This document shows, piece by piece, positions 11,281 through 24,610 of a stretch of 64,000 nucleotides of DNA. Position numbers and translations under genes: made by a program. Below the pieces are notes generated by a model. That model was given only the letters and a program-made list of their open reading frames with translations. It was not told the DNA's origin and did no database searches. The stretch covers positions 503,501-567,500 of the forward strand of contig NZ_VFIY01000005.1 of assembly GCF_006385175.1 (NCBI RefSeq). The letters are read 5' to 3'. Source of the stretch: Emcibacter nanhaiensis (GTDB lineage Bacteria > Pseudomonadota > Alphaproteobacteria > Sphingomonadales > Emcibacteraceae). Position 1 is the first letter of the stretch. The number at the start of each line of letters is the position of its first letter.

Positions 11281-12225
11281 ATGCAGGCAGACAGTCTCCT
11301 TGAGGGGTTTGAATCATATTTCGAGACGGAACTCCTGCCCGAACTGCAGGAGATCGAAGCCGGCCGCCCCCGGGCCATGAAAATCTTCATGGCGGCGGTT
11401 GTGGCGGCCGTGTTGGTCTTTTGCGCCGCCGCTTATTTTATCCTGTCCCGCCGCATGGCGGACCCCCAGGTGATGATCTTTGTCGGCGTGGGCTGCGTGG
11501 GGATCGGCGCTCTGGGCCTCAGGCCCCTGTCTAATCTGCAGAAGCAGGCCAAGAACCGCATCATGACCGCCCTGTGTGGGCATCTCGGGCTTCACTACCA
11601 GATGAAGCCAGCCCATCAGCCGGTCAGTACTTTCAAAAACCTGCGCCTGGTCCCCGGTCATAACAAACGGAAAATCGAGGACCGGGTCTACGGTCAGGTC
11701 AAGGGCGCTGACTTTAATATGTTCGAGGCCAAGCTGATCCAGGAAAGCCGGGACAGCAAAGGCCGCAAAAGCAGCCGCACCGTCTTCCGCGGCCTGTTGT
11801 CCCATTTCGATTTCCACAAGCAGTTTTCCGGCACCACCATCATTCGCAAGGACAGGACCGCGATCGGCAATTTCTTTGACGGCGCTTTCGCCAGCGGCGA
11901 GCGGGTCAAGCTGGAAGACCCGGAGTTCGAGCGCCTGTTCGAGGTCTATGCCACCGACCAGGTCGAGGCCCGCTATCTGCTTACCCCCACCTTTATGGAG
12001 CGCATCAAGCAACTGGCGGCGCTGGTCGGTACGGAAAACCTGCAGCTGGCCTTTGACCGCGGCAACCTGTATCTGTCCATCCGCAAGCCGGGGGATAGCT
12101 TTGAAGGCGGCTCCATGTTTTCCAGTTTTGCCGATCCGGGCCGGGTTTATTCAAGCGCCCGGGAACTGGCCCTGATCTATGACATTGCCGAGGTGCTCCG
12201 GCTCGAACTTGCCACCCGGGTCTAG
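11281..12225 (+). CDS. DUF3137 membrane protein
   Basis: A 314-residue protein with a short cytoplasmic N terminus, two adjacent hydrophobic helices (about residues 35-58 and 64-80) and a large soluble C-terminal domain. The order of blocks, including a central VYGQVKGADFNMFEAKL and the C-terminal LLTPTFMERIKQLAAL with YLSIRKPGDSFE, matches DUF3137 proteins. It follows lemA directly and has no known activity. A role with LemA at the inner membrane is inferred from linkage. Confidence 0.82.
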   Translation: MQADSLLEGFESYFETELLPELQEIEAGRPRAMKIFMAAVVAAVLVFCAAAYFILSRRMADPQVMIFVGVGCVGIGALGLRPLSNLQKQAKNRIMTALCGHLGLHYQMKPAHQPVSTFKNLRLVPGHNKRKIEDRVYGQVKGADFNMFEAKLIQESRDSKGRKSSRTVFRGLLSHFDFHKQFSGTTIIRKDRTAIGNFFDGAFASGERVKLEDPEFERLFEVYATDQVEARYLLTPTFMERIKQLAALVGTENLQLAFDRGNLYLSIRKPGDSFEGGSMFSSFADPGRVYSSARELALIYDIAEVLRLELATRV

Positions 12226-12296
12226 GCTTTTAGCGGTTGCGTCATTTGCCTGTCTTGGCTACCTTTCAGGGATAAATAAATTCCTGGGGGGTACGC

Positions 12297-14249
12297 ATGC
12301 GCTTTATTATCCTTATTTTATCTGTCCTTACTTTTGTTTCTCCGGCTGTTGCGGAAGAGCCGCAGACGTCCGTTTCGGCGGAGGTGTTCGGGCAGCTTCC
12401 AAGGATAGATGGCGTACAACTCTCTCCTGACGGCACGCGCATGGCTATGTTGCAAAGCTACAAAGGGGCGATGACCCTGACTACAACCGGCTTGAGGCAG
12501 GGGGAAGTTGGGACTTTTTACACAATACCCTTCAAGGAAGGGCGGTATAACTGGTTCCGCTGGCTAACCAATGATCGTCTGGCGGCCAGTATCAGATTTC
12601 CCGAGGAACGACTTTATTCCAATACTACTGAAGGACGCTTGCTGGCGTTTGAGTGGGATGCAAGCGAACAGATCAATCTTGTAAAACGGCAGCGGATCAA
12701 GGGGTACTGGGCGGCAACAAGCCGAACCTGGATATCCCAGTTTCAGGATAAGGTTGTAAGCTTTTTACCCGACGACCCGGATCATATTTTGCTGGCTCTC
12801 GATGATTTCGACAATATCAATCGGCCTGATGTCTACAAGGTGAATATCCATGATGCCGACCGGTCCCGCATTATCCGCTCGCGCACAAATATCCGGGACT
12901 GGCGGGCGGACCAGAAGGGTGTTGTCCGGCTGGGCATCGGGTTCAATGAGAAAGGCAAAGAGCGTATCATGTATCGCAAGAGCGAGGACGACGGCTGGAA
13001 AACCATTGCCCGTTATGATCTGATTGAAGACGATATTCCCTTTACCTTTGAGGAATTCAGTTCCGATCCTGATATCATCTATGTTTCCAAGCTGGATGAG
13101 AATGGTCGCAACGCCTACTACAAATATGACCTGGAGAAAGAAGAATTTATCGACCAGGTAGCCGGCAGTGTTGAAGGGGATGTGGACTCGGTTGATATCG
13201 ACGAAGACGGAAACCTGCGTAGCTACTATTATTCCGGGGTCAAGCCGGTGACTGTCTATACGGACCAGAAGCGTAAAAGCCTGGCTGCTTTTTTCGAAAA
13301 GAAATTTCCCGGTCAGAGCAGCCGTATTGTCAGCAGCAGCAAGGACAAACGCAAATATATTGTGTTGGTAAGCTCGCCTCGGAACCCCGGCGATTACTAT
13401 CTTCTGGATCTGGACAAGAAAGCCATGAACTGGTTTGCCGAAAAATACCCGGGTCTTGATCGCAGCAAGCTGGCCCCGATGGAGCCTGTTACTTACACGG
13501 CCCGCGACGAGCTGGAAATACCGGGCTACCTCTCCCTGCCGGTTGGCAAAGAGCCGAAAAACCTGCCTACGATCATCATGCCTCACGGCGGACCTAACGC
13601 CCGGGACCACTGGGAGTTTGATTACTGGGTTCAAATGCTGACCACCCGCGGTTATGCGGTGCTGCAAATGAATTATCGCGGATCAACGGGTTTCGGCGCG
13701 GGATTTGAATCTCTTGGTGACTAGGAGTGGGGCGGCAAGATGCTGGACGATATCAACGACGGCACCCGCTGGATGATTGAACAGGGTTATGCCGACCCGG
13801 ATAAGGTCTGCATTATGGGCGGTAGTTACGGCGGTTATGCGGCCCTCCAGGCGCCGGTCAAGGAACAAGGCTTGTATAAATGTTCGGTGGCTTTTGCGCC
13901 GGTGACAGATGTCGGCGCCCTGTTATGGCATGCGAGAAAATTTATCGGGGACAAGATGTATCGTCACTATATCCGCAACGATGAACTCTCCTATGACGAT
14001 ATGTCCCCGAGCGAGAATATGGACAAGATTGATTTTCCCGTGTTGCTGGTCCATGGCACCGAAGATAGACGGGTTGAATTCGACCAGGGTCAGGATTTTG
14101 CCAAAAAAATGAAGCGTGAGAAAAAGGACATCACCTTCCTCAAGTTCGAGGAGGGCGATCATTTCCTGAGCCGGCAGGAACATCGCGTGGCGTTCCTGAA
14201 GGCGGTGGAAAAATTCCTTGCCAAACACCTGGGCGGGGAGGTGCACTGA
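12297..14249 (+). pseudogene. S9 family serine peptidase interrupted by an in-frame amber codon
   Basis: The reading frame encodes 650 positions with a TAG at codon 476 (13722-13724) and no other lesion. A signal peptide (FIILILSVLTFVSPAVA) is followed by a beta-propeller-like region with a start PRIDGVQLSPDGTRMA, then an alpha/beta-hydrolase domain from about residue 400 (IIMPHGGPNARDHWEFD). The catalytic serine, S510 in GGSYGGYAA, the aspartate in GTEDRRVEF and the histidine in EEGDHFLS all lie beyond the stop, so the truncated product would be inactive. Frame, codon use and conserved residues are intact on both sides, which suggests a recent mutation, a base-call error or readthrough. A downstream ATG at 13740 could start a 169-residue fragment. 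The 5' start follows a strong TGGGGGG. Confidence 0.8.
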
Positions 14250-14270
14250 CCTCCCCCGATCGGCCGTGTC

Positions 14271-14678
14271 CTAGAGGTTCATCAGCAACAGCCTGATCCA
14301 CATGGCCAGCACCACAGCCATGCCGGAGGCAAAGGTAATGAGCCGGTGATAGACATTGTTGTAGGTGGTATGGATCAGCGCCTGCAGTAACCGCAGGCAC
14401 AGGAACGCCCAGGCCATATAGATGAACAGATTGTCTTCCTGCCCCCTGACCAGGATCGCCAGGCACACCGCATAAAACAGCACCGGCACTTCGTAAAGGT
14501 TGGACCAGTGCCGGGTCGGCTTTTTCACATAGTCCGGCGGCGTGTCGCCGTCGAGGGTCTTGTAATAATGCGGCGCCACATCGCCGAGCCGCACCGACCG
14601 GAACCGCCCGATCACCAGGAACGGTGAATAGAGAATGGTGAAGATGGCCATCAGGGCCATGGGATACAGGACAGACAT
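14271..14678 (-). CDS. MAPEG family membrane protein
   Basis: A 135-residue protein with four hydrophobic segments. The central RHWSNLYEVPVLFYAVC and the following VYHRLITFA are MAPEG hallmarks. Eukaryotic members are glutathione transferases or eicosanoid enzymes; bacterial members of this short type are mostly uncharacterised. GGGGAAAG precedes the start. It is convergent with the S9 gene and transcribed alone. Confidence 0.82.
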   Translation of the reverse strand: MSVLYPMALMAIFTILYSPFLVIGRFRSVRLGDVAPHYYKTLDGDTPPDYVKKPTRHWSNLYEVPVLFYAVCLAILVRGQEDNLFIYMAWAFLCLRLLQALIHTTYNNVYHRLITFASGMAVVLAMWIRLLLMNL

Positions 14679-14819
14679 CGCTCTTTCCCCTTTTTATTGT
14701 TTCGCGCTCTAAGGCGGTTCAGGGTATCAGACTTTTACCGCTTGTGTTATGCATTTATAACGCTGTGGCCATGCAGTATTGGATAAGAGGGAAAGGCTGG
14801 GACAATGCGGGAGATCTAT

Positions 14820-15923
14820 ATGAATTTATTCAGGATTCTGGTCTTGATCGGCCTGGCGGTGCCGGCCCGGGCGGAAACCGGGGAGCCGGTGTTCGATGCG
14901 GCACAGGCGGGACGGTTTGCCGATCTGGCGCTCAAATGCATTCACCGGGAATATCCCAACAAGATTTCCCATATGATGCAGAGTGACGGCCATGTGGCGC
15001 CGCCCCGGGACCTGCATCCGGTCTTTTACGGCTGTTTCGACTGGCATTCGGCGGTGCATGGCCACTGGATGCTGGTCAGGCTCCTGCATGTCGGGCCGGA
15101 CGGCGACTATAAACACAATATCCTGCCGGCTTTGGCGCAGAGTTTCACCCCGGACAGGGTAGCGGGGGAAGTGGCCTATTTCCGCGCCCGCATGGGCAGT
15201 TCCTTCGAGCGGCCCTATGGCCTGGCCTGGTTCCTGCAGCTGATGACGGAGCTCAGGCAGTGGCAGGATCCGATCGGGCAGCAATGGGCCCGCACGCTCG
15301 AACCCCTGGAGGCGGTGGTGGTGGAGAATATCAAGATCTGGCTGCCCAAGCTGGTTTATCCGGTGCGCATCGGCACCCACAACCAGACGGCCTTTGCCTG
15401 GGGGCTGATGCTGGACTGGGCCCGGCAGGCCGGGGATCAGGACCTGGAACAGCTGATTGTCGCCCGGGTGCGGGAATTCCACGAAAAGGATCAGAAATGC
15501 CCGCTGGCCTATGAGCCCTCCGGCGAGGATTTCATGTCGCCCTGCCTGATGGAGGCCGACCTGATGCGCCGGGTCCTGCCGCCGAAGAAATTCAGCAGGT
15601 GGTTCAGGAAATTCATGCCGCAGGTGCCGAAAGACGGCAGCTGGGACTGGCTGCCGCCGGGGATCGTCGGCGATATTGCCGACGGCAAACTGGCCCATCT
15701 GGACGGCCTCAACCTGTCCCGGGCCTGGAACCTGGAAAATATTGCCGCGGCGCTGTCGAAACGGGACCGGCGCCGGCCGTCGCTGCTGAATGCGGCCCGG
15801 GTGCACCGGAGTGTCGGGCTGCAGGCGGTCACCGGGGAGCATTATGCCGGCGGTCACTGGCTCGCCAGTTTTGCCACGTACCTGATGACGCACCGAGGTC
15901 TGGACGCCCCCCTCGGACAGTGA
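14820..15923 (+). CDS. DUF2891 family secreted protein
   Basis: A 367-residue protein with an N-terminal signal peptide (LFRILVLIGLAVPARA) and an all-alpha domain. The conserved segments FYGCFDWHSAVHGHW, RIGTHNQTAFAWGL and EPSGEDFMSPCLMEADLM mark the DUF2891 family. Repeated helical hairpins with conserved aromatic and acidic residues are reminiscent of glycan-processing (alpha/alpha) barrels, but no activity is established. ATG 14820 has GGGAG 6 nt upstream; an ATG five codons earlier is the alternative. It stands alone. Confidence 0.75.
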   Translation: MNLFRILVLIGLAVPARAETGEPVFDAAQAGRFADLALKCIHREYPNKISHMMQSDGHVAPPRDLHPVFYGCFDWHSAVHGHWMLVRLLHVGPDGDYKHNILPALAQSFTPDRVAGEVAYFRARMGSSFERPYGLAWFLQLMTELRQWQDPIGQQWARTLEPLEAVVVENIKIWLPKLVYPVRIGTHNQTAFAWGLMLDWARQAGDQDLEQLIVARVREFHEKDQKCPLAYEPSGEDFMSPCLMEADLMRRVLPPKKFSRWFRKFMPQVPKDGSWDWLPPGIVGDIADGKLAHLDGLNLSRAWNLENIAAALSKRDRRRPSLLNAARVHRSVGLQAVTGEHYAGGHWLASFATYLMTHRGLDAPLGQ

Positions 15924-16038
15924 TAAAATTCACAAAATTGTAACAAAAACTACATACTTATGTCATTTACCTGCCGGGTGCTTGAGCCTACAATGGCCTG
16001 CAGAATTAGAACTATTTCCACAATGGCGGAGGTTACGC

Positions 16039-16533
16039 ATGGCGCATTCTTTATCTGATGTGAACGGGATTGGCCCGGCCACACAAAAACTGCTCGAGGC
16101 GCATGGCATCAAAACGGTGGCGGCACTGAGTAAGGCGACACCGGAGAAGCTGGCTGAAATCCAGGGGTTTTCCGTACTCAGGGCGTCCCGGGTAATTGAG
16201 GCGGCGATCCTGCTGACCTCCTCTCCGGCGACCGGTACGGCCGCGGCCCGTAAGCCTGCGGCGAAAAAGCCGGCCGCCCCGAAACCGGCTGCCCCGAAAC
16301 CGGCGGCCAAGCCGGCGGCGAAAAAAGCAGCGCCTGTAAAAGAGGAAAAAGCGGAAAAACCGGCCAAGAAAAAGGACAAGAAAAAGGCTGAGAAAAAGAA
16401 AGCCGATAAAAAGGCGGACAAGAAGAAATCCGACAAGAAAAAGTCCGATAAGAAGAAGGCGGACAAGAAGAAAACCGACAAGAAAAAGTCTGACAAAAAG
16501 AAGTCTGCAAAAAAATCGAAGAAAAATAAATAA
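16039..16533 (+). CDS. Helix-hairpin-helix protein with histone-H1-like Lys/Ala/Pro tail
   Basis: A 164-residue protein in two parts. Residues 1-60 form a helix-hairpin-helix domain (LSDVNGIGPATQKLLEAHG, then TPEKLAEIQGFSVLRAS), a fold that binds DNA backbones without sequence preference. Residues about 70-105 are Ala/Pro/Lys repeats of the KPAAPKPAA kind, and from about 108 to the end the protein is almost purely lysine with repeated KKxDKKK units. This tail resembles bacterial H1-like proteins such as AlgP and would bind DNA, RNA or polyphosphate. GGAGG lies 6 nt before the ATG. No partner overlaps it; a Nudix gene follows after 118 bp. Confidence 0.8.
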   Translation: MAHSLSDVNGIGPATQKLLEAHGIKTVAALSKATPEKLAEIQGFSVLRASRVIEAAILLTSSPATGTAAARKPAAKKPAAPKPAAPKPAAKPAAKKAAPVKEEKAEKPAKKKDKKKAEKKKADKKADKKKSDKKKSDKKKADKKKTDKKKSDKKKSAKKSKKNK

Positions 16534-16587
16534 AACCTTAACCGCAGAGTGCTATGGTTAATTTCCAAGGGGGAAACTGGACAATAC

Positions 16588-16626
16588 CATATCTGGTAGC
16601 TAAAATAAGAAAACATACCAGATATG
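16588..16626. repeat. 11-bp perfect inverted repeat upstream of the Nudix gene
   Basis: CATATCTGGTA (16588-16598) and its exact complement (16616-16626) flank a 17-nt AT-rich spacer and end 25 bp before the Nudix start. There is no T run after it, so it is more likely an operator or a 5'-leader hairpin than a terminator. Confidence 0.6.
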
Positions 16627-16651
16627 AACGGTTAGAGACTTTGGAATTAAT

Positions 16652-17080
16652 ATGGGCGCGAAGCCGACAACAAAGGATGTTTTCAGGAAAGCCGACGGTC
16701 TTCCGATTTCGGTAAAGGCCGTCATTACCCTTGAAGACAAGGTGCTGTTGCTGCAGGAACCCGACAAGGAGTGGGAACTGCCTGGTGGCAAGCTGGATGA
16801 AGGCGAGGGCCTCGAGGACACCCTGCACCGGGAAGTCTATGAAGAGACCGGCCTTAAAATCAAGTCCGCCAACCTTGTTGATCTTTGTGTCCGCCCCCGC
16901 GATCGTGGCCGTTCGGATATTTGTGTGGCCACTTACTACTGCAAGGTCAAATTTTCTTCCCTCAAAGATGTCACGATTTCTGAAGAGCATATCTGTGCCG
17001 GACTGTTCAAAAAGCGTCAGCTGGACCGGCTCTATATGCTTGATATTTATCGTGAAGTTGCCGGAAAAATTCTTTCCTGA
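16652..17080 (+). CDS. Nudix hydrolase
   Basis: A 142-residue Nudix protein. The box GX5EX7REUXEEXGU is complete: GKLDEGEGLEDTLH followed by REVYEETGL, about residues 49-71. Nudix enzymes cleave nucleoside diphosphates linked to another moiety, and some act on diadenosine polyphosphates or polyphosphate; the substrate here is unknown. The gene lies 32 bp upstream of a CYTH phosphatase on the same strand, so the two may be cotranscribed. An inverted repeat sits in its leader. Confidence 0.88.
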   Translation: MGAKPTTKDVFRKADGLPISVKAVITLEDKVLLLQEPDKEWELPGGKLDEGEGLEDTLHREVYEETGLKIKSANLVDLCVRPRDRGRSDICVATYYCKVKFSSLKDVTISEEHICAGLFKKRQLDRLYMLDIYREVAGKILS

Positions 17081-17112
17081 CCTGAAGACCATTTTCATTT
17101 AGAGTATTGTTT

Positions 17113-17622
17113 ATGCCTGAGAACGCTTCGAACATTGAAATCGAACGAAAGTTCCTTGTTTCCCGTCGTCCCGATGGCGAACTGGTCAAACGCCAGTCCA
17201 TCCGTCAGGGCTATATCGCCCGCGAGGCCGGCAATACGGTCCGCATCCGCCAGAAGAATGACAAATATATTCTCAGCATCAAGGCCAGCAAGGGCGCCAA
17301 CGAGCGCTACGAGCTGGAGTATGCGGTGAGTGAGGCCGATGCGACCCTGCTGTTCAAACTGTGCACTGGTCCGCTGATCGAGAAAACCCGGGAGGTCTAT
17401 AGCTTCAGGGGGCATTTGTGGGAAGTGGATATTTTTCACGGCGCCAACGACGGCCTGATCATTGCCGAAGTGGAGCTGGACAGTGCCGACGAACAGTTCG
17501 AAAAGCCGTCCTGGCTTGCCCGCGAGGTGAGCCATGACGCCCGTTTTTTCAATGCCTATCTGTTCAGCCATCCCTTTGTCGGCTGGGGGCTCAGCTACCA
17601 GGAACTGCTCGACGGCAAATAG
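17113..17622 (+). CDS. CYTH-domain phosphatase/cyclase-like protein
   Basis: A 169-residue single-domain CYTH protein. The diagnostic ExExK motif is intact in IEIERKFLV near the N terminus, and further tunnel residues follow in NTVRIRQKNDKYILSIK, ERYELEYAV and IIAEVELDS. CYTH enzymes bind triphosphates with divalent metal and are often inorganic triphosphatases rather than cyclases. The ATG at 17113 is preferred to a TTG two codons earlier. The stop is 3 bp from the end of the convergent parA-like gene. Its intact catalytic motif contrasts with the degenerate CYTH region of the CHAD protein nearby. Confidence 0.85.
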   Translation: MPENASNIEIERKFLVSRRPDGELVKRQSIRQGYIAREAGNTVRIRQKNDKYILSIKASKGANERYELEYAVSEADATLLFKLCTGPLIEKTREVYSFRGHLWEVDIFHGANDGLIIAEVELDSADEQFEKPSWLAREVSHDARFFNAYLFSHPFVGWGLSYQELLDGK

Positions 17623-17625
17623 CCC

Positions 17626-18369
17626 TTACAGCAGCTGCAGGCGGAACTTCAGGTCTTCCCACAGGGAATTATACATCTGGGCCGGCGGGCTGGCCGGGGC
17701 GAAGGCATGGACCGGCGCCCGCTTGATACCCATCTGCTCGACGATGCTTGAATAGGGAATATAGCTGTTGAGGAATTCCGGATATTCCTCGCTGGCATGG
17801 TCGATAATGTCCCGGTGCAGTTTCTTGCGCCGGTCGACCATGGAAAAGAACGGCCAGACCCGGGAATTGTCATAGCCTTTTTCTTCCCGGAAGCTCATCA
17901 GTTGCTCATAGGTGCGTAAGGACAGGCTGGTGGGGATGATCGGCACCAGCAGGCCGTCCACCACGGAAAAAATATGTTCCGACAGGGCGGAAATGCTGGG
18001 CGGGCAGTCCAGCACCAGCAGGTCATAGTCGTCGGTCACCGGCTTGAGGATCTTGAACAGGGTGGTCAGTTTCTTTTCCACCAGTTCGATATCCAGCAGG
18101 CGATAGGAAAAATCGGCCGGCAGGATGTCCAGGTTGTCATAGTCGGTCCCCTTGATCAGCTGCTCCAGGTCGTGTTTCTTTTTCACCAGGCCCTTGGTGC
18201 CGCCCTTGACCTTCGGTTTGACCCGGAAGTAATAGGTGGACGACCCCTGCGGGTCCAGGTCCCAGAACAGCACCTTGAAGCCTTCCCGGGCGGCAAGATA
18301 GGCAATATTGACGGCAGTGGCGGTCTTGCCTACACCGCCTTTGATGTTAAAGACACCAAGTGTTTTCAT
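17626..18369 (-). CDS. ParA/MinD-type ATPase without a ParB partner
   Basis: A 247-residue deviant Walker ATPase. KGGVGKT gives the signature lysine K10 and P-loop lysine K15, DLDPQGSS is the A' motif and LVLDCPPS the Walker B region. Such ATPases bind DNA nonspecifically in the ATP form and position plasmids, chromosomes or protein assemblies on the nucleoid. No ParB, centromere-like repeat or McdB-like adaptor is nearby. The start overlaps the stop of the CYTH/CHAD gene by 4 bp, so the two proteins are made together, and CHAD proteins are known from polyphosphate granules. A cargo-positioning role is therefore inferred. Confidence 0.88.
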   Translation of the reverse strand: MKTLGVFNIKGGVGKTATAVNIAYLAAREGFKVLFWDLDPQGSSTYYFRVKPKVKGGTKGLVKKKHDLEQLIKGTDYDNLDILPADFSYRLLDIELVEKKLTTLFKILKPVTDDYDLLVLDCPPSISALSEHIFSVVDGLLVPIIPTSLSLRTYEQLMSFREEKGYDNSRVWPFFSMVDRRKKLHRDIIDHASEEYPEFLNSYIPYSSIVEQMGIKRAPVHAFAPASPPAQMYNSLWEDLKFRLQLL

Positions 18370-19940
18370 GACGGGCTTTTTCCTTTGGCGGATTTCTTTT
18401 TCCGGGGGCCGAAAAGCTGGCGGAATTTCTGTTCCGCTTCCGGTGAATCGAATGAGGTGAACCGGTCGGCGAATTCCCGGCGGGCCGCCATCTGTCCCTC
18501 AATCAGGTGGGAGGCCAGGATGCCCATGGCCATGAAGGTCTGGGCGTTGCCCATGTTCTTTTGCTGCATTTCTTCGGAAAAACCGGTGATGCTTTGGGCC
18601 TGGACCTCGTAATCCTGGAAATCGCCCAGGTTTTCCTGCAGGAGTTTCAGGCCGGCAATGAGGTTTTTCACCTCCCCGGGCGGATAAAGGCTCTGGAAGA
18701 ATTCCATCAGGTAGCGCAGTTTCTTGCCGGTTTTGCGCAGTTCATGCAGGTCCTCGGCCGGGCTCTCGTCGGTGATGGCCTTGCCTTCCTGGACAATGCG
18801 CTGGAAGGTCTTCCAGATGCGCCGGCTGGCCAGCTCCCGGATCGCCAGGTCGGCGTTCGGGGCAGCACCCTTGTCGTCATCCTCAAGAAAGGCGCGGTAG
18901 TCATCCAGCAGCTTTTTGTATTTGGCGGTGCCGAGCGTGCGGGCCAGCGTCTTTTGCTCTGCGGCCTGTTTCTGGACCAGGAATTTTTTCAGGTCCTCAA
19001 GGGAGCCGCGATATTCCTCCGGCAGCAGGCCGCGGTAATTTTCAAATTTCAGCAGATAGACGTCCAGGTCGCGGGTCGGGCCGGTAATCTGGCCGAGCCA
19101 GGCAAACTGTTCCTTCCAGCGGTTGGTTTCCGCCTCTCCGAACACGCCCTTGATCTGGCTGAGGGCAGAACGGGTGCGGCGCACGGCGACCCGGTAGTCA
19201 TGCAGGAATTCGGAATCCAGATCGGCGATAGTGCCGGCCTCATTTTCCTGCATGGTGGCAAACAGGGTCTTCAGGATTGCTGTCGTGGCTTTGGCCGCCG
19301 GGGCGCTGCTGTCCAGTTTGATATTCAGTTTCGAGCTGTAGGTGCCCGGCGTGACGCCGAAGCGCTGCAGGGTTTCGTGAAGATAGGGATGTTTGCGGCG
19401 CCCGAAGCCGATCTGCTGCAGCCTGCGGGCGATTTTTCCCGCTTCCTTTTCATAGCCTTTGACCGGCAGGAGTTGCAGCGACCATTCGCTGACTGTATCG
19501 GCGGCGCCGTTCGGGCAGGTGATCTGGTTTTGATCGAGATAGAGCGTGGCGGTCTTTTTCTCTTCACTGTCCAGGGCATAATATTCCAGCCGCTGGGTTG
19601 TTAGCTTCAGGACCGGCAGCAAGCGGCGCATGGCAAGGATCTTCGCCAGGCGCTTCTGGATCGGGCTGGCCGGAAAATCCCAGGCAAAGGCGGGGGCTTC
19701 CCTGTGCAGGGTGATACTGCCCTGCAGGCCGTCATCCGTCAGGTGCCGCCACAGATAGCGGTTTTCCTGACCGTGCTGTTCCCGGATCATGTAACCCTGG
19801 GCGTTGAACAGACGCCAGTCGAACGTATCCAGGAAATCCTGATGCAACGGCAGTTCCCGGATCAGGGACAATCCGTTTATCTTTTCCAGCTTGTTGCGGA
19901 TGGCGGCCAGGTCAAAATTTTCCGGTCCGTAAAAATACAT
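18366..19940 (-). CDS. CHAD-domain protein with degenerate CYTH-like N terminus
   Basis: A 524-residue protein. The N-terminal 200 residues look like a CYTH barrel (SITLHREAP, TTQRLEYYAL) but lack the ExExK motif, so they are unlikely to be catalytic. The C-terminal CHAD domain, about residues 215-510, is clear from its conserved histidine/arginine helices: LHDYRVAVRRTRSAL at 246-260 and DLHELRKTGKKLRYLMEFF at 397-415. CHAD is a helical, basic, polyphosphate-binding domain found on polyphosphate granules. The C terminus is lysine-rich (RKKKSAKGK). A good promoter lies 44 bp upstream of the ATG, and parA follows with a 4-bp overlap. Confidence 0.88.
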   Translation of the reverse strand: MYFYGPENFDLAAIRNKLEKINGLSLIRELPLHQDFLDTFDWRLFNAQGYMIREQHGQENRYLWRHLTDDGLQGSITLHREAPAFAWDFPASPIQKRLAKILAMRRLLPVLKLTTQRLEYYALDSEEKKTATLYLDQNQITCPNGAADTVSEWSLQLLPVKGYEKEAGKIARRLQQIGFGRRKHPYLHETLQRFGVTPGTYSSKLNIKLDSSAPAAKATTAILKTLFATMQENEAGTIADLDSEFLHDYRVAVRRTRSALSQIKGVFGEAETNRWKEQFAWLGQITGPTRDLDVYLLKFENYRGLLPEEYRGSLEDLKKFLVQKQAAEQKTLARTLGTAKYKKLLDDYRAFLEDDDKGAAPNADLAIRELASRRIWKTFQRIVQEGKAITDESPAEDLHELRKTGKKLRYLMEFFQSLYPPGEVKNLIAGLKLLQENLGDFQDYEVQAQSITGFSEEMQQKNMGNAQTFMAMGILASHLIEGQMAARREFADRFTSFDSPEAEQKFRQLFGPRKKKSAKGKSPS

Positions 19941-19983
19941 GACACCCCTTGATTGCTCTGCGGTACAGTTCTTGTCTGCCGAA

Positions 19984-20012
19984 ACTATAAGAAGGCGGGG
20001 TCATATCGCCAA
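19984..20012 (-). promoter_or_regulatory. Sigma-70-type promoter of the CHAD-parA operon
   Basis: On the minus strand TTGGCG and TATAGT are 17 nt apart, and the -10 ends 44 nt upstream of the CHAD start codon. It matches the housekeeping consensus at 9 of 12 positions. Confidence 0.6.
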
Positions 20013-20069
20013 TCATAAAATTGTTACAAGTTTATGACAAAAATGGCGGATTCCAAAGGTTTTTTGAAT

Positions 20070-20567
20070 TTACCTGGCCACCAGCACCTGATAGGCGGCG
20101 GTAACCTGCTGGAATTTGATGGCGGCCTGCTTGTCCCCGCGATTGGTGTCCGGGTGATAGCGTTTGGCGAGAGAGCGGTAGGCGGATTTGATTTCCGCCT
20201 GGGTGGCGTCGTCATCCAGTTCCAGCACCTCGAAAGCATCTGCCCGGCGCTGGTCGGCGCCATAGCTTTCCGGCCCGGTGTTATAGGCGCCGCTGGTCTT
20301 GTAGCCGGCGCTGGCGCGGGCTTCTTCCTGGGCGCGGCGGAAGGCGTCCGCTTTGTTGCGGCCGGCGAAATAGTTCCAGTTCTGGTTATATTCAGCCACA
20401 TGCCGCTGGCAGAAATGCCATTTTTCCGGGGAATCCGGCGCCTTGGGCGCGGGGAAATCGCCGGGTTCGTCGCAGCCGTCATAGTCGCAGAGCCTGACTG
20501 ATACAGGCTCGCGTTCCACATGATATCCGTCCCATCGGGGAAAACCCCAGCTTTTCGATCTTGGCAT
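20070..20567 (-). CDS. J-domain (DnaJ-like) protein
   Basis: A 165-residue protein with a C-terminal J domain (about residues 108-165) containing the essential HPD motif in AKRYHPDTNRGD, so it should stimulate an Hsp70. The N-terminal half has a CDYDGC pair followed by HFCQRH, a possible zinc-binding arrangement, and an aromatic NQNWNYFAG segment seen in other alphaproteobacterial members. Placing the J domain at the C terminus sets it apart from DnaJ itself. It is divergent from chvI. Confidence 0.85.
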   Translation of the reverse strand: MPRSKSWGFPRWDGYHVEREPVSVRLCDYDGCDEPGDFPAPKAPDSPEKWHFCQRHVAEYNQNWNYFAGRNKADAFRRAQEEARASAGYKTSGAYNTGPESYGADQRRADAFEVLELDDDATQAEIKSAYRSLAKRYHPDTNRGDKQAAIKFQQVTAAYQVLVAR

Positions 20568-20753
20568 GCTTTTCAGGCTCTTTCACGACAACTCATGACT
20601 AGCAGGAAATTGTACCGCCAATCAATGAAGATTTTCTTTCCATATAGGGTCACCGGGCCGGCTTTTTTAGACCCTGTCGGAAATTCTTAATCTTGCCACG
20701 GTTTCGTGCTACTGTCAGTCGGAATAGGTTGCAACATAAGGAAAAAAAGCTAA

Positions 20754-21458
20754 ATGGCGACAACGATTACGCTTGTGGATGACGATCAGAATATTTTGAC
20801 ATCCGTTAGTATGGCTCTGGAGGCAGAAGGATTTGACGTTAAAACCTACACGGACGGCGCCTCCGCACTTGAGGGACTGAATAAAAACAGCACCGATATG
20901 GCGGTTCTCGACATCAAGATGCCGCGCATGGACGGCATGGAACTGCTCCGTCGCCTCCGCGAAAAGCATAATTTTCCGGTTATTTTCCTGACCTCAAAGG
21001 ACGATGAGATTGATGAGATGCTCGGCCTCAAAATGGGGGCCGATGACTATATCAAGAAACCCTTTTCCCAGCGGCTGCTGATCGAACGCATCAAAACCGT
21101 TCTGCGCCGGGTGGACGCCGTCAGGAAAAGCGCCACGGCGGATGAGGATGAGGATGGGGTGATCGTTCGCGGCCGGCTGCGCCTGGACCCCGTGCGCCAC
21201 CAGTGCGAATGGGACGGCAAGGATGTGAAGCTGACGGTGACCGAGTTCCTGATCCTGCAGGCGCTGGCCCACCGTCCGGGCCATGTGAAAAGTCGCGACC
21301 AGTTGATGGATGTGGCCTATCATGACGACGTCTATGTGGACGACCGTACCATTGACAGCCATATTAAGCGGCTGCGCAAGAAATTCCGGGCTGTGGATGA
21401 GGAATTCGACGGCATTGAAACCCTCTATGGGGTCGGCTACCGCTACAGTGAAAGTTGA
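20754..21458 (+). CDS. chvI: Response regulator ChvI
   Basis: A 234-residue OmpR-type regulator. The receiver domain has the acidic pair DDD at residues 9-11, phosphoacceptor D53 in [11 protein letters not shown], and a lysine in KKPFSQ. The C-terminal winged helix ends in [11 protein letters not shown]. It is followed after 31 bp by chvG, and the further order hprK-rapZ-EIIA-HPr is the alphaproteobacterial chvI locus. ChvI controls envelope, exopolysaccharide and acid-stress genes in rhizobia and is essential or important in several lineages. Confidence 0.92.
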
Positions 21459-21489
21459 TGGGGGTAGACAATTGCGCTAAAAACAGCGG

Positions 21490-23139
21490 ATGAGCCCGGA
21501 CACAAAGCCATCGCCCATCAGGACCCGCCCCAAGCGCGGGATTTCGCCGCTGACCATCCGGATCCTGTTGGTGAATCTGATTGCCCTGATTTTTCTGGGC
21601 GGCGGCATCCTTTATGTGGACGACCTGCAGCAGACCCTGATTGAATCCCGGATCGACTCCCTGCGCAAGGATGCCGAAATCCTGGCCGGCGCCCTCGGCG
21701 AGGCGGCGACGGGGGGACCCGACACCACCGAAATCGAGCTTATTCCCGCCCAGCAGATTATCACCCGCCTTGTGGACGTGACCCAGAACCGGACCCGTTT
21801 CTTTGACGTGTCGGGGGCCAAGCTGATTGACAGCCGGGACCTGGCTGTTGAACAGTCCATTGTGGTCAACCCGCTGCCGCCGGAGGGCGGGCTGGACAGT
21901 TTCTGGGATAACCTGAGCTGGAAAATTTCCAGCATCCTCGATCGTCTTAACAAACGCTACGCCCTGGGGGAATACCGGGAAAAAGCCCATGAGGTGGCGG
22001 AACATTATCCCGAGGTGCTGGAAGCCCTGGCCGGGGAGAACAGCTATCGCATCCGGGTGCTGACTGAGCGGTTCGACATTATTACCGTAGCCGTGCCGGT
22101 ACAGAGGTTCCGGCGGGTGCTGGGGGCGCTGATGGTGTCGGCGGATGACCGTGATATCCGCGAGGCGGTGCAGGATGCCCGCATGACCATCCTGAAGCTG
22201 TTTTTTGCCGCCCTGCTTCTGACGCTGACCCTGTCGACCTTTTTCGCCCGCACCATCGTCCGGCCGATCCTGCGCCTGGCCTATGCCGCCGACCGGATCC
22301 GCATGGCCACCAATCCCGACTATCAGATTCCCGATTATTCCCGCCGCAATGACGAGATCGGTGACCTGAGCCGCTCGCTCCGGGAAATGACCGATACCCT
22401 GGCCCGGCAGATCGATGCGGTGGCGTCATTCGCCGCCGATGTGGCGCACGAGCTGAAGAATCCACTGACGTCGGTGCGCAGCGCCATCGAAACACTGTCC
22501 TTTGCCAAAAAAGAAGAGGACAAGCAGAAGCTGCTGGCCATCATCCAGCAGGATGTGCAGCGGCTTGACCGGTTGATTTCCGATATTTCCGATGCCTCCC
22601 GGCTTGATGCCGAACTGGCGCGCAGCAGTATGGAACTGATCAACATGACAGCGATGGTGGAAACCCTGCTGGATATCTATGACACCACCCAGAAGGACAA
22701 GCTGCCGGACCTGGTGCTTGAGGTGGATGGCAGCCGCCGGCTGCGCAAATCGAAGGAAAACAAGCCGCACTATGTCATGGGGCTGGAGGGGCAACTGGGC
22801 CAGGTTGTGCGCAACCTGCTGGACAACGCCATTTCCTTTTCCCGGTCCGAGGGTCATGTCTGGGTCCGGCTGCGGGAGCATAAGAATATGGTCGAACTGG
22901 TCGTGGAAGACGAGGGCGTGGGCATCCCCGAGGACAAGCTGGACAGTATCTTTGAGCGCTTCTATTCCGAACGCCCCAAAGGGGAAGCCTTTGGCAAACA
23001 TTCCGGCCTTGGCCTGAGCATCTGCAAGCAGATTGTGGAATCCCACGGCGGCACCATCACCGCGGAAAACCGCGAAGAAGGCGGCGGCGCCCGCTTTATC
23101 GTCCGCCTGCCGCGGGCAGAAGGGGGCAGGAAGCAATGA
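21490..23139 (+). CDS. chvG: Sensor histidine kinase ChvG (ExoS)
   Basis: A 549-residue membrane kinase. A first TM helix lies at about residues 20-42, a periplasmic stimulus-sensing domain follows to about 232, and a second TM helix precedes a HAMP region. The phosphoacceptor is H320 in DVAHELKNPLTS. The ATPase domain shows the N box VVRNLLDNAISFS, G1 DEGVGI and G2 GLGLSICKQIVESHGG. It would phosphorylate ChvI. It overlaps hprK by 4 bp, coupling the kinase to the incomplete PTS genes. Confidence 0.93.
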   Translation: MSPDTKPSPIRTRPKRGISPLTIRILLVNLIALIFLGGGILYVDDLQQTLIESRIDSLRKDAEILAGALGEAATGGPDTTEIELIPAQQIITRLVDVTQNRTRFFDVSGAKLIDSRDLAVEQSIVVNPLPPEGGLDSFWDNLSWKISSILDRLNKRYALGEYREKAHEVAEHYPEVLEALAGENSYRIRVLTERFDIITVAVPVQRFRRVLGALMVSADDRDIREAVQDARMTILKLFFAALLLTLTLSTFFARTIVRPILRLAYAADRIRMATNPDYQIPDYSRRNDEIGDLSRSLREMTDTLARQIDAVASFAADVAHELKNPLTSVRSAIETLSFAKKEEDKQKLLAIIQQDVQRLDRLISDISDASRLDAELARSSMELINMTAMVETLLDIYDTTQKDKLPDLVLEVDGSRRLRKSKENKPHYVMGLEGQLGQVVRNLLDNAISFSRSEGHVWVRLREHKNMVELVVEDEGVGIPEDKLDSIFERFYSERPKGEAFGKHSGLGLSICKQIVESHGGTITAENREEGGGARFIVRLPRAEGGRKQ

Positions 23140-23564
23140 CTCTGTTCCACGCCACCGTTGTCTCGCTGGAGGGACGGGGGATCATGATCAGCGGCCCGTC
23201 CGGATCCGGCAAATCCGACCTGGCCCTGCGCCTGATCGAGGAGGCAGGCGCCCGGCTGGTTGGGGACGATTATGTCACCCTGACGGTTGAAGGGGGCCGG
23301 TTATGGGCCCGGCCGGCGGACAATATCTCCGGCCTGATCGAGGTACGCGGGGTCGGTCTGGTCAAGATGGACTTCCTGCCGTCCGCTGCCCTGGATCTGG
23401 TGTTTATCCTGCCTCAGCCGGCGTCAGGCGTACAGCCCGAGCGTTTGCCTGAAGAGCAATATTTTGAGCATGAGGGAATTCGGGTGCGCCAGCTTGATTT
23501 CCTGCCGTTTGAAGTGTCGGCGGTGGCGAAAATCAAGGCGGCGCTCCGCCACGTGTTGTCCTGA
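23136..23564 (+). CDS. hprK: Short HPr kinase/phosphorylase
   Basis: A 142-residue protein corresponding only to the catalytic C-terminal half of the Gram-positive enzyme, which is the usual alphaproteobacterial form. The P-loop GPSGSGKSD is at about residues 20-28, followed by RLVGDDYVTL. It should phosphorylate or dephosphorylate the regulatory serine of HPr, and that serine is conserved in the HPr encoded 1.5 kb downstream. The start overlaps chvG (ATGA). Confidence 0.9.
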   Translation: MTLFHATVVSLEGRGIMISGPSGSGKSDLALRLIEEAGARLVGDDYVTLTVEGGRLWARPADNISGLIEVRGVGLVKMDFLPSAALDLVFILPQPASGVQPERLPEEQYFEHEGIRVRQLDFLPFEVSAVAKIKAALRHVLS

Positions 23565-23575
23565 ATTCTGATTCA

Positions 23576-23602
23576 TTGTCACAGGAAATAGGTTTGTATA
23601 AT
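23576..23602 (+). promoter_or_regulatory. Possible promoter of rapZ
   Basis: A perfect TATAAT is preceded by TTGTCA with a short 15-nt spacer, about 97 nt upstream of the rapZ start. The spacer is below optimum, so strength is uncertain. Confidence 0.4.
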
Positions 23603-23698
23603 CAGGCCTGCTATGAGAAGATTGCCCGGATTAAGTGATTCCAGAGCGATAGGCGTCTCGCGACGACGGTCCGCCAGAAAGATGCACAGGGGACAAAG

Positions 23699-24610
23699 GT
23701 GACAGAAAACAGTGATGCGGCCGACCGCAACACGGGCAAGCTTACTCTTTTGCTGATTACAGGCATGTCAGGGGCCGGAAAATCCACTGCTCTCAAGGCG
23801 CTGGAAGACATCGGCTACGAAGCGCTGGATAATCTCCCGCTCAGCCTGCTGCCCAATCTTATTGAACTGGCCAAGGGCGAAGACCCGGACCATATCAATC
23901 CGGCTTTCGCCATCGGCATTGATGCCCGGACCCGCAATTTCAGGCCGGACAAGATTATTTCGCGACTGCAGGAGTTGAAGGACCGGGACGATCTGGATGT
24001 GAAAGTCCTCTATTTTGACAGCAACAATACGGTATTGGCCAAACGGTTTACGGAAACCCGCCGCCGTCATCCGCTGGCTATTGACCGGCCGGTTTCTGAC
24101 GGCATCGTCCGGGAGCGGCAAATGCTTGAAGTGATCCGGGCCGAAGCGGACTATTTTTTCGATACCTCCGATTTGGGGATTCATGAGCTCAAGCGCATGC
24201 TGAGCCAGCGGTTTGAACGCCGGGCCGGCGGTGATCTCAATATTTCCATCAGTTCCTTCGGTTATCCCAAGGGCCTGCCCCGGGATGCGGATCTGGTGTT
24301 TGACGTGCGGTTCCTGAAAAATCCCCATTATGAAGACAGTCTGCGGCCGCTGACCGGCGAGGCGGAGGAAGTGGGCGACTTTATAAAAGGCGACCCGGTC
24401 TTCGAAAGTTTTTGGGATAAAATCGGTTCTCTGATATTGTCTTTGCTGCCTGAATACAAGAAGGAGGGAAAATCCTATCTGACCATCGCATTCGGGTGTA
24501 CTGGCGGCCGGCACAGGTCGGTTTTTGTTGCCCGGGAGCTGGCTGAGCTATTGCGCGAGCACGGTTACTGGGTGAATGTGCATCACCGGGAACTGTTATC
24601 CGGTGAGTGA
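23699..24610 (+). CDS. rapZ: RNase adapter protein RapZ
   Basis: A 303-residue P-loop protein. The Walker A is GMSGAGKST near residue 21, the conserved YEALDNLPLSLLP and FDTSDLGIHELKRML blocks follow, and the C-terminal domain has the FGCTGGRHRSVFVA signature. In enteric bacteria RapZ directs RNase E to a small RNA that controls glucosamine-6-phosphate synthase; in alphaproteobacteria the role is less clear but the gene sits with PTS genes. The start is GTG, preceded by GGGGACAAA. EIIA follows after 24 bp. Confidence 0.93.
   Translation: MTENSDAADRNTGKLTLLLITGMSGAGKSTALKALEDIGYEALDNLPLSLLPNLIELAKGEDPDHINPAFAIGIDARTRNFRPDKIISRLQELKDRDDLDVKVLYFDSNNTVLAKRFTETRRRHPLAIDRPVSDGIVRERQMLEVIRAEADYFFDTSDLGIHELKRMLSQRFERRAGGDLNISISSFGYPKGLPRDADLVFDVRFLKNPHYEDSLRPLTGEAEEVGDFIKGDPVFESFWDKIGSLILSLLPEYKKEGKSYLTIAFGCTGGRHRSVFVARELAELLREHGYWVNVHHRELLSGE

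Follow-up and report, generated by a model that had tools for sequence, protein, structure and literature searches.

What does a ParA-type ATPase do when its gene adjoins that of a polyphosphate-binding protein? The question is raised by a 64,000-nucleotide stretch of Emcibacter nanhaiensis DNA (contig NZ_VFIY01000005.1, positions 503,501 to 567,500, forward strand; here the window), in which genes for a ParA-type ATPase and a CHAD protein lie beside those for a stand-alone CYTH protein, a Nudix hydrolase and a helix-hairpin-helix (HHH) protein with a lysine-rich tail, here called HHH-lysine. A first-pass annotation of the window had named these five families as neighbors and proposed one locus that binds, degrades and spaces polyphosphate (polyP) granules. 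All five reading frames are present where it placed them, the families are backed by Pfam or structure searches, and its overall interpretation is partly supported. We find that CHAD and ParA form a conserved gene pair whose CHAD protein keeps the polyP-pore residues of CtCHAD and has lost the catalytic motif of its N-terminal domain. The locus is probably, though far from certainly, a module of the ParA/MinD kind that positions or partitions polyP granules.

Linkage of ParA with CHAD

The five genes form two convergent groups and not one operon. The plus strand carries HHH-lysine, Nudix and CYTH; the minus strand carries CHAD and ParA, which converge on CYTH, whose stop (17622) is separated from that of ParA (17626) by three bases. 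Within the minus-strand pair, an ATGA at 18366..18369 overlaps the CHAD stop codon with the ParA start codon. A fixed five-gene operon was rejected, the core being CHAD-ParA only; the single locus of the annotation thus stands as to this conserved core and falls as to one fixed unit. The Emcibacter genome holds one CHAD match, one ppk1 elsewhere and two weaker ParA-family matches besides the window ParA.

The pair recurs widely (G and L numbers denote our genomes and loci). Among 60 relatives, ten genomes have CHAD and seven a ParA scoring 240 bits or more; in each of these seven, CHAD is followed immediately 3' by ParA in the same orientation. The CHAD genomes without this ParA are G002, G036 and G053. 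Of 289 Alphaproteobacteria, 103 have CHAD and three (G000, G184 and G268) have a ParA of at least 350 bits, each adjoining CHAD; among the matches listed for this sample, a sister ParA group scored 224-233 bits and other ParA proteins at most 149 bits. A survey of 369 Gammaproteobacteria detected ParA, with E 1e-55 as the cut-off, at 57 loci in 56 genomes, and 41 of the 46 loci that reached 300 bits lie directly 3' of CHAD. Wherever the CHAD profile matched (47/47 loci; 39 gamma, 8 alpha), CHAD is upstream of ParA on the same strand, and at least 21 of these loci share the window's four-base CHAD/ParA overlap. A scan of other genomes' contigs, in which a single ParA query returned four loci, places linked pairs in Kordiimonas, Chromatiaceae and Planctomycetota metagenome-assembled genomes (MAGs) and, with CHAD truncated at a contig end, in a Thermodesulfobacteriota MAG; the nearest named relative of the window ParA is from a Kordiimonas sp. 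MAG. On plasmids, where seven of 12 listed matches were opened, CHAD-ParA-CYTH-NUDIX runs in one direction on three Paracoccus replicons, a Sphingomonas ParA match has no CHAD in view, and Halomonas and Pontibacter matches stand at the record start with their upstream side outside view. Conservation of the neighborhood in relatives, which the annotation had set beforehand as one of its tests, was therefore found for CHAD-ParA, and CYTH, Nudix and HHH-lysine each recur beside the pair elsewhere.

Control loci lack these neighbors. Around 24 other ParA-family loci, assigned to the chromosomal type by scores alone, no CHAD, CYTH, Nudix or HHH gene was found up to 1.5 kb on each side, and around 40 CHAD loci without this ParA (the higher-scoring ones of the alphaproteobacterial survey) none of this ParA, CYTH, Nudix or HHH was found within at most 2.5 kb on each side; the test loci were examined over longer flanks, but the accessory genes counted there start within 1.3 kb of ParA. 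A further 17 CHAD loci, 16 from genomes that also encode a relative of this ParA and one from a genome with the sister group (L209, G036), have neither ParA nor HHH beside them and gave one weak Nudix match and one CYTH match (L208), the latter being part of a CHAD protein itself.

The control set also contained, met by chance, a second and separate pairing of CHAD. In three of its 40 loci (L157, L180 and L191), CHAD is followed immediately, and on the same strand, by the gene of a different, short ParA/MinD-type ATPase (~200 aa, KGGCGKTT), with a gap of nine bases in L157. These short ParAs, which match the ParA profile weakly and below the 60-bit line, are 45-54% identical to one another and align to the window ParA over just 43-61 residues.

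Some relatives of the window genes have other surroundings. The loci of the sister ParA group (L147-L150 and L216) are not beside CHAD; a Sphingomonas parapaucimobilis ParA 37% identical to that of the window overlaps the aat gene; and in L123, L126 and L130, ParA relatives without CHAD lie beside an acyl-CoA synthetase-type gene in opposite orientation (Pfam AMP-binding in L123). Short CHAD-only proteins are encoded beside ParA in L117, L122 and L129, and in the first two ParA is flanked, on the side away from CHAD, by a gene for a SixA-like histidine phosphatase (Pfam run singly for L117). In L146, from G002, ~80 bases separate CYTH and CHAD, and the strain offers a natural comparison. On the Paracoccus plasmids, the start of CHAD is overlapped by the gene of a small protein of 62-67 aa whose N-terminus is basic (L210:6299-6487, L212:6288-6476 and L215:6273-6476); this protein had no Pfam match in the two scanned and could be a ParA partner or regulator.

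The CHAD and ParA proteins

The first ~195 residues of the window CHAD protein have a CYTH/TTM fold with neither ExExK nor a Pfam CYTH match, and we therefore call them a pseudo-CYTH. In the model, the N-terminus matches YgiF and other TTM proteins, and the remainder matches CtCHAD. The annotation had described a CYTH/CHAD protein, of which the CHAD domain and the TTM fold hold good, while the catalytic motif and the Pfam CYTH match are absent. With ExExK missing, an active YgiF-type enzyme was rejected as the identity of the protein, and its own CYTH domain looks dead. Scored by distance from the CHAD domain, ExExK occurs in none of the 43 CHADs that are linked to this ParA and have a TTM-sized N-terminus, versus 33 of 39 others; within Alphaproteobacteria, the counts are 0/7 and 33/39. 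Genomes G576 and G459 carry both kinds, a linked copy without ExExK and another copy with EIELK.

The C-terminal part is distinct as well, forming a helix with the pattern R..F...F..F, then F..LF. A profile of this helix, trained on eight alphaproteobacterial proteins and used with a threshold of 5 bits, is exceeded by 33 of 44 other linked CHADs, by 3/3 Paracoccus proteins and by that of G002, and by none of 40 alphaproteobacterial CHADs without this ParA; in another locus set it picks one of 11 proteins, from G396, whose ParA lies elsewhere. CtCHAD, whose polyP complex has been solved (6QVA), aligns through the C-terminal tail too. We also considered a basic C-terminus as the site of ParA contact and dropped it, since the mean charge of the final 12 residues is only slightly higher in linked CHADs (1.98) than in others (1.43). 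In a quick tree, the 40 other alphaproteobacterial CHADs fall on one side of a branch (support 90), the linked alphaproteobacterial CHADs are mixed among linked gammaproteobacterial ones and the Planctomycetota protein, and the short CHADs beside ParA (L117, L122 and L129) stand apart. This mixing suggests that CHAD and ParA have been inherited or transferred as a pair. In one protein (L144, G043), the last 71 residues are lysine/alanine-rich, as if an HHH-lysine tail had been fused on.

All six residues of the CtCHAD pore (H253, R256, R260, R296, R418 and Y419) are conserved in the window CHAD; polyP-pore and surface residues of CtCHAD were tested by mutation, as passages of PMC6537752 describe. 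Genes of phosphate metabolism lie near some of the pairs: ppk1 or part of it is within the fetched stretch at eight of the 57 gammaproteobacterial ParA loci, ppx is in L116, a phosphate transporter and a PhoU-like gene are in L085, and on a Paracoccus marcusii plasmid CHAD-ParA-CYTH-NUDIX stands beside pst-phoU-phoB. Such neighbors are not general and we treat them as supportive. Together with the pore residues and with DDP1-like Nudix proteins at other loci (below), they bear out the link to polyP that the annotation had drawn.

The window ParA has intact Walker motifs, with K10-T16 (KGGVGKT) and D37, D39 and Q41 of the DLDPQ region invariant in ten sequences; we take the former to be a deviant Walker A with its signature lysine and DxDPQ to be the ParA/MinD motif. 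Its best sequence matches are Soj/ParA, and it scores with ParA partition families; a fold search with its model put Soj and ParA on top, with McdA and BcsQ structures among the matches, and BcsQ models match it below their cut-offs. A basic loop, modeled with low confidence around residues 53-66, carries over a slightly longer stretch a net charge of +2 to +10 in ten sequences. The neighbors of the window ParA are CHAD and CYTH, with no ParB. Elsewhere, 84 neighbors downstream of ParA (some picked as matching) gave 109 families, and the 25 commonest of these include no ParB family; the check was confined to the downstream side, where genes were picked by a crude reading-frame score. A plain DNA-partition ParA was rejected, CHAD linkage being found instead of a ParB among the scanned neighbors.

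Accessory genes and possible roles of the locus

CYTH, Nudix and HHH-lysine are recurrent accessories of the CHAD-ParA core. CYTH adjoins ParA in the window, in each of the eight further alphaproteobacterial ParA-CHAD loci included (L139-L145 and L151), on the three Paracoccus plasmids (same strand) and in two of the 57 gammaproteobacterial loci (L116 and L118). The intact ExExK that the annotation had seen in the window CYTH is there as EIERK, and the motif is kept in 14/14 stand-alone CYTH proteins, 13 beside ParA and one in G002, with the truncated L142 left out. The solved structure nearest to the window CYTH is that of NE1496 (E 1.8e-19), a tripolyphosphatase, and the window protein is probably a short-chain (tri)polyphosphatase.

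A Nudix gene lies near ParA in the window, in L151, L140 and L144, on the three Paracoccus plasmids and in the gammaproteobacterial loci L121, L124 and L125. The nearest solved chains to the window protein are MutT/Nudix hydrolases, with no DDP1 among them; it is of MutT-like type with no specific evidence for polyP, and the tie to polyP that the annotation had given it is not supported. For one Paracoccus and one gammaproteobacterial Nudix searched, yeast DDP1 is the best solved match (E 8.5e-11 and 1.4e-9), and the Pfam NUDIX model finds the Paracoccus Nudix and neither L125 nor L121. Passages of PMC6537752 name Ddp1-type Nudix hydrolases as polyphosphatases.

The 102-aa tail of HHH-lysine contains 45 lysines, with five KPAA followed by DKKK-type repeats. 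The gene is beside ParA in the window and in L151, and lies 168-176 bases 3' of ParA in the gammaproteobacterial loci L087, L091 and L092; relatives next to ParA thus come from three gammaproteobacterial genomes and one Kordiimonas, and among the 60 relatives HHH-lysine is found in G000 and G003 only. The tails vary in wording (DKKKS, GKGKGK) and are alike in character. Unlinked HHH-lysine genes occur in seven further genomes with a relative of this ParA, including the Planctomycetota MAG, and in G671 the gene 3' of HHH-lysine encodes Ppx/GppA. HHH-lysine genes are present in eight of 56 gammaproteobacterial genomes with this ParA versus eight of 313 without (Fisher p 8e-4, relatedness uncorrected), as scored by a profile trained on three of the eight genomes that have both; minus these three, the counts are 5/53 versus 8/313 (p 0.027, relatedness uncorrected). 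Because the Nudix and HHH profiles of the control survey contain several of their own matches, the independent evidence for both families consists of the earlier profiles and the PDB matches. HHH proteins with very different poly-lysine tails (L217-L236) occur in MAGs of Planctomycetota and Thermodesulfobacteriota and in 16 of the 369 Gammaproteobacteria, half of which lack this ParA; the match in L231 is cut by a contig end, its tail outside view.

As a granule-positioning module, the locus might work as follows. The CHAD domain would grip polyP, and the protein would be a former polyphosphatase turned granule adaptor for its own ParA, an adaptor role proposed because the N-terminal catalytic motif is lost and the conserved C-terminal helix is distinct. 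ParA, presumably co-translated with CHAD, would dimerize on ATP and bind the nucleoid; by analogy with McdAB, as treated in passages of the preprint PMC12204374 and of PMC10241942, CHAD-coated granules would stimulate ParA and so release it from DNA, and this release would draw granules apart, so that each daughter cell would inherit a share. Trimming of short polyP or triphosphate around the granules may fall to the Nudix and the stand-alone CYTH enzyme, and HHH-lysine, where a lineage carries it, may be a further tether to DNA or polyP. More broadly, we tentatively propose, at slightly less than even confidence, a new class of ParA cargo, with ATP-driven positioning of polyP granules, a CHAD polyphosphatase that lost its motif and gained a ParA-contact helix, an HHH/poly-lysine tether in some lineages, a pair that spreads between phyla, and a second, short ParA that recruited CHAD independently. 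Such a change from enzyme to adaptor, if true, would show how a ParA system gains a new cargo.

Several observations weigh against a granule-positioning module. CHAD without this ParA is the rule in Alphaproteobacteria (103 CHAD genomes versus three with the dedicated ParA, of 289), and the sister ParA group (G036, G042 and G048) does not adjoin CHAD. Among the gammaproteobacterial loci, only one of the 11 at 200-300 bits adjoins CHAD, and five of the 46 at 300 bits or more do not (G427, G620, G396, G589 and G508; in the last, ppk1 eight bases upstream of ParA speaks for the module). G002, of the same family as Emcibacter, has CHAD, CYTH and Nudix and lacks ParA and HHH-lysine. The Emcibacter ppk1 is not linked to the locus, and of six further mutated CtCHAD surface residues outside the pore, the window protein is basic at three. 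The helix profile stays below threshold in 11 of the 44 other linked CHADs. Linked CHADs are largely one group on the tree, so that helix and motif loss should not be counted as many separate events; two of the three CHADs paired with the short ParA have ExExK at the expected place, so that pairing with a ParA does not always go with loss of the motif. Linked CHADs also have no net charge in their first 20 residues, and known ParA partners have basic residues near the N-terminus, according to passages of PMC12204374.

Other roles can be imagined for the same genes. The ParA might be a regulatory ATPase whose ATP state turns CHAD assembly, or the synthesis and breakdown of polyP, on and off, in the way that BcsQ works for cellulose synthesis, and both the BcsQ structures among the fold matches (with BcsQ models matching below their cut-offs) and the ppk1, ppx or DDP1-like genes near some loci would fit. 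Since the best fold and sequence matches are nevertheless Soj/ParA, and the lost catalytic motif of CHAD suits an adaptor better than a regulated enzyme, we regard a switch of this kind as unlikely. HHH-lysine and CHAD-ParA could instead fasten polyP to the chromosome and so bring about compaction or silencing, with the spacing of granules as a by-product. The tail with its five KPAA and 45 lysines in 102 residues resembles AlgP as described in passages of PMC9239181, and HHH-lysine genes are commoner in Gammaproteobacteria with this ParA; yet most ParA-CHAD loci have no such gene beside them, and eight gammaproteobacterial genomes (relatedness uncorrected) have it without this ParA, which makes this fastening rather improbable.

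We give very little credence to a loose neighborhood of phosphate-hydrolyzing genes without joint action: the accessories do vary in presence and orientation, CHAD-ParA alone is near-constant and the window Nudix is MutT-like, but the accessories recur in varied orders beside the same ParA and are absent from the control loci. It is hardly credible, finally, that this is ordinary DNA partition, with a plasmid or chromosome as the cargo of ParA and CHAD present as a bystander. The window ParA does score with ParA partition families and has relatives on Paracoccus plasmids, and a 39%-identical ParA of a Marinobacter plasmid has no adjoining CHAD, the nearest being ~6.6 kb away; against this, ParA stands beside CHAD on megabase contigs (G597, G671, G382 and G590), no ParB family was among the 25 commonest downstream ones, and the other ParA matches of the same genomes form, among the matches listed, a separate, lower-scoring set.

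Positioning of polyP granules by ParA would resemble, and differ from, several known systems. Like McdA-McdB, it would combine a ParA-family ATPase with a cargo-binding adaptor, and McdA structures are among the window ParA's fold matches; here the adaptor would be CHAD and the cargo polyP, and ParA adjoins CHAD and CYTH. The main text of PMC10241942, which covers several ParA/MinD systems and cargos, contains 'polyphosphate' and 'CHAD' 0 times. A parA gene beside CHAD has already been noted: a folD-ppk1-parA-CHAD cluster of Acidithiobacillus is reported as highly conserved in PMC10892726, passages of which explain parA only by plasmid partition, with no reading as granule positioning; unlike the Emcibacter locus, that cluster includes ppk1. 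Like YgiF in passages of PMC6537752, the window protein has a TTM + CHAD layout, and it shares the CHAD fold and polyP-pore residues with CtCHAD; unlike these, its TTM motif is lost and its gene is linked to ParA.

AlgP of Pseudomonas aeruginosa, needed for even spacing of polyP granules according to passages of PMC9239181, has a lysine-rich, H1-like tail with KPAA repeats as HHH-lysine does; the window protein, set beside AlgP by description, differs in its N-terminal HHH domain (Pfam) and its five KPAA, and those passages describe no ParA partner for AlgP. PhaH, an HHH phasin of Caulobacter cited in PMC13052382, organizes storage granules and is thus, again by description, a likeness to HHH-lysine, its granules being of polyhydroxybutyrate (PHB). 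In passages of that 2025 review, the proteins positioning polyP in Caulobacter are not identified and the energy need of polyP or PHB granule localization remains to be seen; between them, such passages of PMC9239181 and PMC13052382 leave open the energy source and most polyP-positioning proteins. Among the matches listed in open-licence literature (titles and abstract starts, bioRxiv excluded), none links ParA to polyP granules or CHAD. With a ParA gene that adjoins the gene of a polyP-binding protein, polyP-granule positioning has a named candidate.

Coordinates and other features of the window

Features of the locus, in window positions (pLDDT, predicted local distance difference test)
Feature	Position	Strand	Evidence and remarks
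HHH-lysine protein	16039..16533	+	164 aa; 62-aa helix-hairpin-helix domain and 102-aa lysine-rich tail; PF14520 (HHH_5) E 2.4e-11
Nudix hydrolase, MutT-like	16652..17080	+	PF00293 E 2.3e-14; accessory
Stand-alone CYTH/TTM protein	17107..17622 (TTG at 17107, ATG at 17113)	+	PF01928 E 2.1e-13; EIERK intact
ParA-type ATPase, CHAD-linked group	17626..18369	-	AAA_31 E 2.8e-32; Soj/ParA and McdA fold
ParA basic loop, low model confidence	18166..18225, residues 49-68	-	pLDDT < 50 at 53-61 and 64-66
Pseudo-CYTH + CHAD protein, candidate granule adaptor	18366..19940	-	524 aa; PF05235 E 9e-63, 213 bits; model pLDDT 88.9
N-terminal TTM/CYTH fold without ExExK	19356..19940, ~residues 1-195	-	Foldseek matches: YgiF 5a60 and other TTM proteins
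CHAD domain	18591..19280, residues 221-450	-	CtCHAD polyP-pore residues kept: H247, R250, R254, R290, R409, Y410
C-terminal helix, candidate ParA contact	18405..18551, residues 464-512	-	Tail profile; typical of CHADs linked to this ParA

NCBIfam gave no match for the window CYTH and CHAD proteins, and Rfam at gathering scores gave 0 matches over positions 12000-24000. A promoter and terminator scan returned only consensus matches. Upstream of the locus, an S9-type peptidase is seemingly split over two plus-strand frames (12297-13724 and 13740-14249), for which a frameshift, a pseudogene or a sequence error are all possible; its Pfam match starts at the end of the first frame.

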